Below are positions 3,904 through 7,538 of a DNA stretch of 64,000 nt, in pieces. Source of the DNA: a bacterium. Its GTDB lineage: Bacteria; Myxococcota; UBA727; JAUIJE01. The position numbers and the translations under genes are program-made. Under the pieces are notes generated by a model. The model searched no databases and was not told where the DNA came from. It was given only the letters and a program-made list of their open reading frames with translations. Where the stretch lies: contig JAUIJE010000013.1 of assembly GCA_030431455.1 (NCBI GenBank), positions 1 to 64,000 of the forward strand, in the 5' to 3' direction. Within the stretch, counting starts at the first letter, position 1; each line of letters opens with the position of its first letter.

Positions 3904-4818
3904 ATGTCCCTTCGTTCGCCGTTCGCCCGTCGTCTTGCCTATACACTGTTGGTGGTGGTGGCGCTGGCCCTCGTCGCCGGCTGTTCGCGCCGGCGTCGCA
4001 CCCGACCCGCGTTCTCCACCGTGATCGACTACCAGCTGCGCCTGGACGGCCACCACAAAAACGTGCTCGCCGCCGATGGCGCGGCCCTGTCCGCGGCCCT
4101 GTCCGGGGTGGTGCTCAGCCCCAACCTCGTGTTCGAGGCCGCGCGCTCCACCGGTCCCGTGGGTCCCCTCGACCAGCCCGGCGGCCCCAGCCTGCCCAAC
4201 GCCCGCGGGCAGCTCGTGCCCACGCCCTCGCACCCCTTTGGCGAACCGGTGTCGGTGGCGCTCGGCCAGCGGCTGCTCAAGCGCCTGGTCGACAAGGGCG
4301 CGACCCTGATCGCCCCCGCGGCCGCCCCCGACTGCGGCAAGGACTGCGGCGACCGCACCTGGGTGGAGCGCGCCATCGCCATCCCCCGCCAAGACGGCGC
4401 GCTGCCGTTCCGGGCCATCCTCGCCGTGCGCCGGCTCGAGGCCGGGCCCCTGCCGCTGGCGGTGACCGTCCGGGAGAACCGCGAAGAGGAAGGGCCCGAC
4501 TTCTACGTCCAGGAGCGGACCAGCTACGCGGAGTACTCGTTGTGCGACGACTTCACCGTGGCCGCGCCCGGGGTCTGGTTCCAAGCCGAGCTCATCGAGG
4601 CCGGCACCGGCCGGCTGCTCGCCCAGTTCGACGAGTTGCGCTTCGTGAAGCTCGAGCGCGGGCTGCGCAACCGGGAGCTCGACCCCGCCGGCCTCGAGGT
4701 CTGCCCCTTGGTCCGGTACGCGTTCTCCGGCGCGGTGCGGGACAACCTCGACGCGGTCCGGGCGGTCGACGCGTTGGCCGACGAGGTCTTTGCCGCCACC
4801 GTCGACACCTTGCGCTGA
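3904..4818 (+). CDS. Lipoprotein of unknown function
   Basis: A 304-residue predicted lipoprotein. The signal peptide has an Arg-rich n-region, a hydrophobic core and a lipobox ending VAGC at residue 27, followed by a very basic RRRRTR stretch. The mature part is mixed alpha/beta in character with two Cys clusters (CGKDCG near 140 and CDD near 215). I recognise no family. The ATG start sits immediately after a hairpin that overlaps its ribosome binding site. A TATAGC -10-like element lies 25 nt upstream. It runs tail-to-tail with the minus-strand selenoprotein gene, with 20 nt between their stops. Confidence 0.8.
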   Translation: MSLRSPFARRLAYTLLVVVALALVAGCSRRRRTRPAFSTVIDYQLRLDGHHKNVLAADGAALSAALSGVVLSPNLVFEAARSTGPVGPLDQPGGPSLPNARGQLVPTPSHPFGEPVSVALGQRLLKRLVDKGATLIAPAAAPDCGKDCGDRTWVERAIAIPRQDGALPFRAILAVRRLEAGPLPLAVTVRENREEEGPDFYVQERTSYAEYSLCDDFTVAAPGVWFQAELIEAGTGRLLAQFDELRFVKLERGLRNRELDPAGLEVCPLVRYAFSGAVRDNLDAVRAVDALADEVFAATVDTLR

Positions 4819-4838: not shown

Positions 4839-5696
4839 CTATTCACAAATGTCCACGTCGCTCTGGAGGTTTGCCACCGCCTCCTCCACCGCGGCGAGGA
4901 TGTCGTCGCCGTTGAGGTTCTCGTTGCCCGCGGTGGTCCCGTGCCCGGCGGTGAACACCACATTCATGCGGCGGGGGTCGACGATCACGTCGATGCCCCG
5001 CTGGGCCGAGAAGGGGCTGTTCCAGAAGGTCAGGGGGTTGGGCTGGGTCTCGCTGTCCCCCACGCAGATGCCTCGGGTGGTCTGCTTGCTCGACATGAAG
5101 GTGTAGCAAGTCTCGGCGGTGCCATCGTCGAACTGGCCCGTGTACTCGAGCACCCAGATGATCTGGGCCCCCGCGGCGATGATCTCGTCAGCTTTGTTCG
5201 CCACCGAACCGGCGTGCGTGTTGCACGCGGGTCACCACGCGGGGATGGCGATGAACAGCAGGACCTCAAACGGGTCCCAGGCGGTGTTGTCGCCGCAATA
5301 GGCGTCGAGCAAATCCAAGGTCTCTTCGGTGACCGCCCCGCCGCCGTCCATCGGGGCATAGCGGGGCCAGGACAACCGGGGGAACGGCTCGCAGAACGCC
5401 ATCGGATCCGCCGCGTCCGGCAGGTAGTCCGGGCAGTGATTCACATCCCCGTCGCCGTCGCCGTCTCCATCGCCGTCGCCGTCCCCATCGCCGTCACCAT
5501 CCCCGTCGCCGTCCCCATCTCCGTCCCCATCGCCGTCCCCATCACCGTCCCCATCGCCGTCGCCGTCCCCATCTCCGTCCCCATCACCGTCGCCGTCCCC
5601 GTCCCCATCGCCGTCACCCATTCCTGTGCCATTGTCGCACGCGGCCACGCCCAGCGCGGCCAGGGACAACAGCAGGGGAAACAGCCAACGAATCAT
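4839..5696 (-). CDS. Thioredoxin-fold selenoprotein lipoprotein (UxxC motif; in-frame TGA at 5232-5234 read as Sec)
   Basis: Read through one in-frame TGA, this is a 285-residue lipoprotein: signal peptide with lipobox VAAC, a (Gly-Asp)n linker of about 60 residues, then a thioredoxin-like domain. The TGA is codon 155 and falls exactly at the first redox cysteine of a CxxC motif: the strand VLLFIAIPAW, then U, then PACN. The same frame stays open for 130 more codons with normal composition, a clear helix after the motif and a further strand (IIWVLEY). Selenocysteine in UxxC is well known in thioredoxin-fold oxidoreductases. A SECIS-like hairpin follows the TGA. The ATG overlaps the stop of the upstream glutamate-synthase-family gene (ATGA). 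The alternative is a nonsense mutation in a pseudogene, but the exact position of the TGA argues against it. No sel genes lie in this window. Confidence 0.78.
5199..5214 (-). promoter_or_regulatory. SECIS-like stem-loop downstream of the Sec TGA
   Basis: On the minus strand a CGCC/GGCG stem (5214-5211 with 5202-5199) closes an 8-nt loop GGUUCGGU beginning 17 nt after the TGA. Bacterial SECIS elements are short hairpins at about this distance with a G in the first two loop positions, which this has. A competing hairpin (GCGTG/CACGC) lies between the TGA and this stem. Predicted by eye only. Confidence 0.5.
5445..5619 (-). repeat. Hexanucleotide array encoding a (Gly-Asp)n linker
   Basis: About 29 degenerate GGNGAY hexamers encode alternating Gly-Asp between the lipobox and the redox domain of the selenoprotein. 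The same type of array occurs in the lipoprotein gene at 13011. Expansion or loss of units keeps the frame. Confidence 0.9.
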
Positions 5697-7429
5697 GCCA
5701 AGGGCAGACTAGTCGGTTTGGTCCGGCCCGACAAAGCGCGGTTCAAGTTTGGCGCGGTGCGTGGCGTAAAGGACTCAGGGTCCGCTGCGTCCCACCACCG
5801 GCGGTAGTGGTCGGGGCAGTCATCGTCGACGAGGCAGCCCCAGGCCAGGGTCGGGTACAGGTCCGACACCGGCTGCACCGCGGTCTGGGACGTGCGCCGA
5901 ATCAGCAGCTCGGGGTGCAGGTCCGCTGGGGTGTCCAGGCCCGCGGCCCCGGTGAGTTCGAGCAGAGACTCCACCGTCTTGTCGTGGAAGTTGCGCACCC
6001 GGTCAGCTTTGTCGTCGACGTCCAGGCCGCGCATCAACCGTTCGTCCTGGGTCGCCACCCCCACCGGGCAATGGTTGGAGTTGCATTTCAACGCCTGGAT
6101 ACAACCGAGCGCGAACATCATGCCCCGCGCGCTGTTGCACGCGTCCGCACCTATGCACAGTTGATGCATGATGTGGTACCCGGTGGCGATCTTGCCCGCG
6201 GACAGCAGCTTGAGCTGGTCGCGCAGGCCCGCCCCCACCAACGTGTTGTGCACCAACCGCAACCCTTCGGTCAGCGGCGCCCCCACCGAGTTGGTGAACT
6301 CGAGCGGCGCCGCCCCCGTGCCCCCCTCGCCCCCGTCGACGGTGATGAAGTCCGGCATCAGGCCGGTCTTCATCATCGCCTTCACGATCGCCATGAACTC
6401 CGACGGGTGGCCGACGCACAGCTTGAACCCCACCGGCTTGCCCCCCGACAGCTCGCGCAGCTTGGTGACGAACTCGAGCAACCCGGTGGGCCCCTTGAAC
6501 GCGGTGTGCCCCGGCGGGGAGTTCACGTCCTTGCCCACCTCGACCCCGCGGATGGCGGCGATCTCGGGGGTGACTTTTTTGCCTGGAAGAATGCCCCCGT
6601 GGGCGGGCTTGGCCCCTTGGGAGAGCTTGACCTCGATCATGCGCACCGACTCGCGCTGGGCATTGACCTTGAACTTCTCGGCGTCGAAGCCGCCGTCCGC
6701 GGCCCGGCACCCGAAGTACCCGGTGCCCACCTGCCACACCAGATCGCCCCCGTGCTCGAGGTGGTAGGGGCTGATGCCGCCTTCGCCGGTGTTGTGGGCG
6801 AAGTTGCCCATCTTCGCGCCCTTGTTGAGCGCCCGGATCGCGTTCTTCGACAAGGACCCGTAGCTCATGGCCGAGATGTTGAGCAGCGACGCGCTGTAGG
6901 GTTTTTCGCACCGGCCTTCGCCAATGAGTATGCGTGCCGTCTCGGGGGCGGGGTGTTTGGGCTCGAGGGAGTGGTTGATCCACTCGTAGCCGGTGGCGTA
7001 CACGTCGCGCCGGGTCCCAAACGGGAGCGTGTCGAGGACGCTCTTGGCCCGTTGGTAAATGATCGAGCGCTTCTCGCGGCTGTAGGGATTCTGTTCGTGG
7101 TCGGACTCGACGAAATATTGCCGCAGCTCGGGGCGAATGGACTCCGCGAGATAACGGGCGCGCCCGAGCAACGGGAAGTTGCGCAGGATGGCGTGGCGGG
7201 TCTGGGTGTAGTCCTTGATGCCGGCGACGAAGTACACGATGACCGGCAACCCCAAGATCGCCGACGGCCACCACAGGTTGGTGAGCCCCGCCACCACCAC
7301 CACCTGCCCGAAGCCGAGCAGCAAGAACGGCCACAGCCCCCACTTCTCGATGAAGGCGGGCACGCGGTCGGCGTTGCGTTCCCAGCGGTGGATGTAGCGG
7401 TCGTCTTTGGAAGGAATGGGGCTCATCAT
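5693..7429 (-). CDS. FMN-binding glutamate synthase family protein, membrane-anchored
   Basis: About 578 residues. Two hydrophobic segments near the N-terminus (LLLGFGQVVVVAGL and ILGLPVIVYFVAGI) are followed by the alpha/beta-barrel glutamate synthase domain that binds FMN. Visible signatures include ISAMSYGSLSKNAI, NTGEGGISPYH, the VDGGEGGTGAAP phosphate-binding loop, and a Cys set (CNSNHCPVGVATQ) resembling the Fe-S ligands of glutamate synthase. It lacks the glutaminase domain of GltB, so it is one of the stand-alone enzymes of this family with uncertain substrate. The start is placed at the MMSPIPS methionines; upstream codons look non-coding. The stop overlaps the ATG of the selenoprotein gene, so both are translated from one mRNA and a redox link is plausible. 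Confidence 0.85.
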   Translation of the reverse strand: MMSPIPSKDDRYIHRWERNADRVPAFIEKWGLWPFLLLGFGQVVVVAGLTNLWWPSAILGLPVIVYFVAGIKDYTQTRHAILRNFPLLGRARYLAESIRPELRQYFVESDHEQNPYSREKRSIIYQRAKSVLDTLPFGTRRDVYATGYEWINHSLEPKHPAPETARILIGEGRCEKPYSASLLNISAMSYGSLSKNAIRALNKGAKMGNFAHNTGEGGISPYHLEHGGDLVWQVGTGYFGCRAADGGFDAEKFKVNAQRESVRMIEVKLSQGAKPAHGGILPGKKVTPEIAAIRGVEVGKDVNSPPGHTAFKGPTGLLEFVTKLRELSGGKPVGFKLCVGHPSEFMAIVKAMMKTGLMPDFITVDGGEGGTGAAPLEFTNSVGAPLTEGLRLVHNTLVGAGLRDQLKLLSAGKIATGYHIMHQLCIGADACNSARGMMFALGCIQALKCNSNHCPVGVATQDERLMRGLDVDDKADRVRNFHDKTVESLLELTGAAGLDTPADLHPELLIRRTSQTAVQPVSDLYPTLAWGCLVDDDCPDHYRRWWDAADPESFTPRTAPNLNRALSGRTKPTSLPLA

Positions 7430-7538
7430 GGGCGCATAGATATCGCAGGCCCGAAAAATGGGGACCCGCCCCCCGCTCGCCACACCGGGCCCGCCCGGCC
7501 GGTTGCGGGCACGCGGGGGGTTGGGGTAACTCAGGGTG

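Follow-up and report, generated by a model that had tools for sequence, protein, structure and literature searches.

Selenoproteins that place a UxxC motif on a thioredoxin fold are a known kind, and the 2026 inventory of 119 prokaryotic selenoprotein families includes several with UxxC on related folds (PMC13188914). Two of its entries resemble the gene described here: the Prx-like thiol:disulfide oxidoreductase selenoproteins (PF00578), with selenocysteine (Sec) in UxxC on a peroxiredoxin-like fold, and the Redoxin family selenoprotein (PF08534, HEU0032618.1), which joins a Redoxin-type domain to UxxC (PMC13188914). The AhpC-type peroxiredoxins share the fold, and Cys-type relatives from the same phylum with a WCxxC motif (among loci L018-L022, L024-L026, L050, and L053), mostly predicted lipoproteins, have the same domain with Cys at the Sec column. 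We compared these systems with a gene on the minus strand of the window, by which we mean the whole 64,000-nucleotide stretch of DNA that was analysed. Its protein falls below the Pfam cut-off for PF00578 and, differs from that family in its predicted lipoprotein nature, its Gly-Asp linker, and a further pair of conserved Cys residues. It is also under the cut-off for PF08534, a loosely named entry from which it is set apart by name and model only. Unlike the AhpC-type peroxiredoxins, it has UxxC rather than TxxC and is predicted to be secreted and membrane-anchored. From the Cys-type relatives it differs by sequence (18-24% identity for those aligned), by its separate branch, and by the extra Cys pair, which is missing from the two compared. 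No curated model matches the family, and judged by name and model it is absent from the inventory of 119 families (PMC13188914), in which the entry "Redoxin family protein" could conceivably be an overlapping label for it.

Read with TGA as Sec, positions 4839-5696 form a frame of 285 residues that ends at TAG and contains a single internal TGA, at codon 155. The features of the gene are as follows:

4839..5696, minus strand: complete gene of 285 codons, very probably encoding a selenoprotein (ATG at 5696-5694, TAG at 4841-4839); relatives are conserved on both sides of the TGA
5637..5696, minus strand: predicted lipoprotein signal peptide with a lipobox-like LGVAAC (residues 15-20) of the signal-peptidase II pattern; Cys20 lies at 5639-5637
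5445..5618, minus strand: Gly-Asp linker of 29 repeats (residues 27-84), read from the sequence
4842..5435, minus strand: thioredoxin/peroxiredoxin-like domain (residues 88-285), from an AlphaFold2 model, structure matches, and relatives
5232..5234, minus strand: TGA codon 155, very probably the Sec of UxxC; TGA in 11/11 of the close family, aligned with the invariant Cys of distant relatives
5223..5225, minus strand: Cys158, the UxxC partner of Sec, in an invariant column
5106..5108, minus strand: Cys197, kept in all Sec members and Ala in the two Cys-type relatives compared
5064..5066, minus strand: Cys211, kept in all Sec members and Arg in the two Cys-type relatives compared

The motif around codon 155 reads FIAIPAW-U-PAC. 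A sequence-only reading of this DNA had pointed to the in-frame TGA between FIAIPAW and PACN, to a frame running on beyond it with a matching fold, to a (Gly-Asp)n linker, and to the likelihood that annotation would split the gene in two. These claims are borne out, the TGA lying at 5234-5232 on a strand (minus) that the reading had left unstated. Lipobox-like N-termini are also seen in several relatives. Standard ORF calling divides the locus into a frame of 154 aa at 5232-5696 and a second one downstream at 4839-5204, which is what one would expect if the TGA were a true stop and the locus either a pseudogene with a nonsense codon or a pair of distinct short genes.

The relatives bear directly on this alternative. 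The same genome has a second copy (C12:311375-311899) whose domain shares 46% identity with that of the window protein. The TGA is at the corresponding codon there (PAW-U-SAC), and also in a relative from another family of the phylum (locus L055). An initial scan of the genome contigs with the single window protein, whose patterns lay in less conserved stretches and included a Cys-for-Sec codon, gave no match. A further scan used a three-sequence alignment with the Sec column masked as X and the peptide patterns [DA][ND][RTM][AD]W[SD]PF[DE] and LLF[VI][SA]IPAW. Because these patterns end before the U codon, Cys-containing members matching them would also have turned up. The scan returned nine loci with 43-50% identity to the window protein, located on nine contigs from eight other (metagenome) assemblies; all nine have TGA at this position and none has Cys. 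Sandaracinaceae, Myxococcales, and Deltaproteobacteria appear among the titles of their records, and two are titled Rhodobacterales and Planctomycetota, which may reflect binning or naming. Together with the window gene and the second copy there are 11 distinct Sec members (L055 counted once), and TGA occupies the position of codon 155 in all of them. The clade is small, and UGA occupies this site in all of its known members. One other genome, Myxococcales MAG.005, also contains two Sec members (L059 and L061), like the genome of the window.

Distant relatives from the same order (18-24% identity to the window protein) have WCxxC, with Cys at the Sec column in every one. The two types are separated on a single branch of the tree (support 100/100), many inner branches being weak, and the Sec clade matches the Cys types with an hhalign probability of 99.5. 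Since the column is Cys in all distant relatives and TGA in all 11 close members, the alignments place TGA at codon 155 far beyond chance. The similarity among the 11 members carries on past the TGA, which a true stop would place inside the catalytic motif, and the genome has the full Sec machinery; we therefore regard termination at codon 155 as very improbable. A sequencing or assembly error is more improbable still. TGA is one base away from TGC or TGT and the relatives come from metagenome assemblies, but the same codon is found on two contigs of the window's genome and on nine contigs of eight other assemblies, which excludes an error.

The genome of the window (7.7 Mb, 28 contigs, 96.9% complete) encodes selA (E=2.9e-153), selB (279 bits, above the cut-off), selD (E=1.3e-110; its frame also contains a TGA), and a tRNA-Sec (selC, 69.9 bits) whose anticodon TCA reads UGA, all within about 35 kb of contig C12. 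Two genes of this genome serve as internal controls, because their TGA codons fall at the established Sec sites of both families, GUAAK in SelD and UHAP in formate dehydrogenase (PMC13188914): in the SelD gene (L016, C12:238673-239596) the motif reads GGGUAAK, and in FdhA, the gene for the alpha subunit of formate dehydrogenase (L086, G000:C12:181827-183821), it reads GUHAP. These sites suggest that the genome uses UGA for Sec in other genes as well. selA is present in 8/8 of the genomes with the nine loci and in 1/7 of the genomes with Cys types only. The search for tRNA-Sec was positive in six of the eight genomes with the loci and negative in the other two.

The machinery also bears on whether UGA might be decoded otherwise, by genome-wide reassignment to Trp or Gly or as Cys by an opal-reading tRNA-Cys. 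Such tRNA-Cys variants occur in some bacteria, and Cys at codon 155 would be chemically workable. Against this, the UGA-reading tRNA that was found is the canonical tRNA-Sec and selA and selD are present, while wholesale reassignment is contradicted by TGA terminating ordinary genes, e.g., the one at 3904-4818 of the window and selA; alternative decoding is thus highly unlikely. We hold with high confidence that UGA codon 155 specifies Sec and that the gene encodes a selenoprotein, Sec incorporation being deduced from these data. The sequence-only reading had proposed as much from the UxxC pattern, and had named homologues with Cys or TGA at codon 155, the presence of selA, selB, selC, and selD, and a sequencing error in the TGA as the points on which the proposal would turn. 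The close homologues have TGA and the distant ones Cys, all four genes are in the genome, and an error is excluded; the machinery, the TGA-keeping relatives, and a covarying hairpin now support the use of Sec.

This hairpin is a conserved feature downstream of the UGA that the reading had not included:

5199..5218, minus strand: putative bacterial SECIS hairpin, CGCACGCC-GGUUC-GGUGGCG with one bulged A, from covariation and RNAalifold

The 11 family sequences align without gaps after the UGA, and their RNAalifold consensus is a stem of seven pairs with a five-base loop. The hairpin starts about 13 nt downstream of the UGA, and its loop starts 21 nt after it in the window gene and 21-22 nt after it across the family. 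Paired cells make up 89.6% of the total, with compensatory changes in two pairs: the outermost (C-G, G-C, and A-U) and an inner one (C-G and U-A). The covariation score of the 11 sequences exceeds those of all 500 shuffles and of all slid controls; in two of them (L061 and L062) the hairpin needs a shifted helix. Among 84 folding segments compared with synonymous-codon shuffles, the strongest folding is that of the segment beginning at codon +5 (mean z -1.42), with the one at codon +30 close behind (mean z -1.33). We also checked the published bacterial SECIS rules (PMC13188914), which are satisfied by 11/11 members. In genes as GC-rich as these, however, 311 of 440 control codons satisfy them too. 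As most control codons pass, we gave the rules zero weight and let covariation alone count. Scanned at gathering thresholds, the window gave no Rfam match, and a permissive scan of seven loci recovered SECIS_3 in FdhA only, which is unsurprising because bacterial SECIS elements vary from gene to gene.

The fold was analysed with an AlphaFold2 model of the domain built from 10 sequences (pLDDT 80.7, pTM 0.84). In the numbering of the domain (81 lower than in the full protein), the model shows a strand spanning 64-70, then UxxC at 74-77 and a helix covering 75-85, so that Sec is predicted to sit at the start of the active-site helix of a thioredoxin/peroxiredoxin-like fold. The best match among solved structures is an AhpC peroxiredoxin (Z 13.8, rmsd 2.8, 151 residues aligned). 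At the sequence level, the window protein scores 18.1 bits against Pfam AhpC-TSA (PF00578, cut-off 26), with weak matches in 10/10 members scanned, and 15.7 bits against Redoxin (PF08534, cut-off 26.6), with weak matches in 9/10 (best E 4.2e-05). In NCBIfam 20.0 the domain has no match and none of the ten members has a relevant one. The PDB sequence search gave no convincing relative, the low E-values obtained with the full protein stemming from the Gly-Asp repeats.

These similarities raise the possibility of a Sec-dependent peroxidase, in which Sec155 would attack hydroperoxides and Cys158 or the pair Cys197/Cys211 would resolve the intermediate. The AhpC-type folds nearest in structure and the weak AhpC-TSA matches throughout the family speak for this, as does the strict conservation of Cys197 and Cys211. 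These residues, seen in 11/11 Sec members and in neither of the two Cys types compared, could make up an additional pair, either redox-active or structural. However, function does not follow from fold similarity, and the TxxC/TxxU peroxidatic motif of peroxiredoxins is missing. The motif here is PAWUxxC, with UxxC as in thiol:disulfide oxidoreductases. We thus consider peroxide reduction to be the main rival, though an unlikely one, and favour, with some reserve, selenol-based thiol-disulfide exchange by a lipid-anchored periplasmic protein as the likeliest function.

The analysis shows an open frame with a conserved TGA, a genome equipped for Sec, a hairpin that covaries, and a predicted fold; the mechanism that we propose for thiol-disulfide exchange goes beyond this. 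SelB and the Sec-tRNA(UCA) would read UGA codon 155 as Sec, aided by the downstream hairpin. The product would then be exported and probably lipidated at Cys20, and the Gly-Asp linker would tether it at the membrane facing the periplasm. There, the attack could come from the selenolate of Sec155 and be resolved by the thiol of Cys158, with a selenenylsulfide as the intermediate of the cycle. The most likely task would be to reduce or exchange the disulfides of periplasmic partners. Overall, the family is likely an undescribed one of lipid-anchored periplasmic selenoproteins, all known members having Sec, with an additional Cys pair, specific to the clade, that could exchange electrons with the Sec-Cys centre. 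The records of several members bear the name Myxococcota, and no selenoprotein survey of this phylum was found in the literature searched. Annotation pipelines tend to cut such genes at the UGA and so to overlook them. The all-Sec clade and its distant Cys relatives form a natural pair for testing the benefit of selenium in an exposed periplasmic redox protein.

Further candidates were observed in the same genome. The product of L096 (G000:C7:61299-61673) is of the AhpC/TSA type, begins with a stretch resembling a signal peptide, and contains RGHW-U-PAC, the TGA falling at the Cys position; this UxxC candidate is of the PF00578 Prx-like kind (HWUPAC), and its similarity to the window protein is limited to 32 residues around the motif. 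L094 (G000:C8:224789-225157) is peroxiredoxin-like, with TGA at the peroxidatic position (TPGU), and is probably the known TxxU selenoperoxiredoxin. The genome therefore has at least six selenoprotein candidates (the two lipoproteins, L094, L096, FdhA, and SelD).

The comparison of gene neighbourhoods revealed no redox partner or conserved neighbour gene near the family loci; flanking genes are shared by L058 and L059 only, and their functions are unrelated. In the window, a glutamate synthase-type gene (Pfam Glu_synthase, 5693-7483, minus strand) precedes the selenoprotein gene, and its TGA overlaps the ATG of the latter (ATGA), an arrangement that suggests translational coupling. Finally, a Cys-type paralogue in the same genome (L025, G000:C8:777916-778122) has long Gly-Asp repeats after its lipobox, the linker thus being common to one Sec type and one Cys type of this genome.
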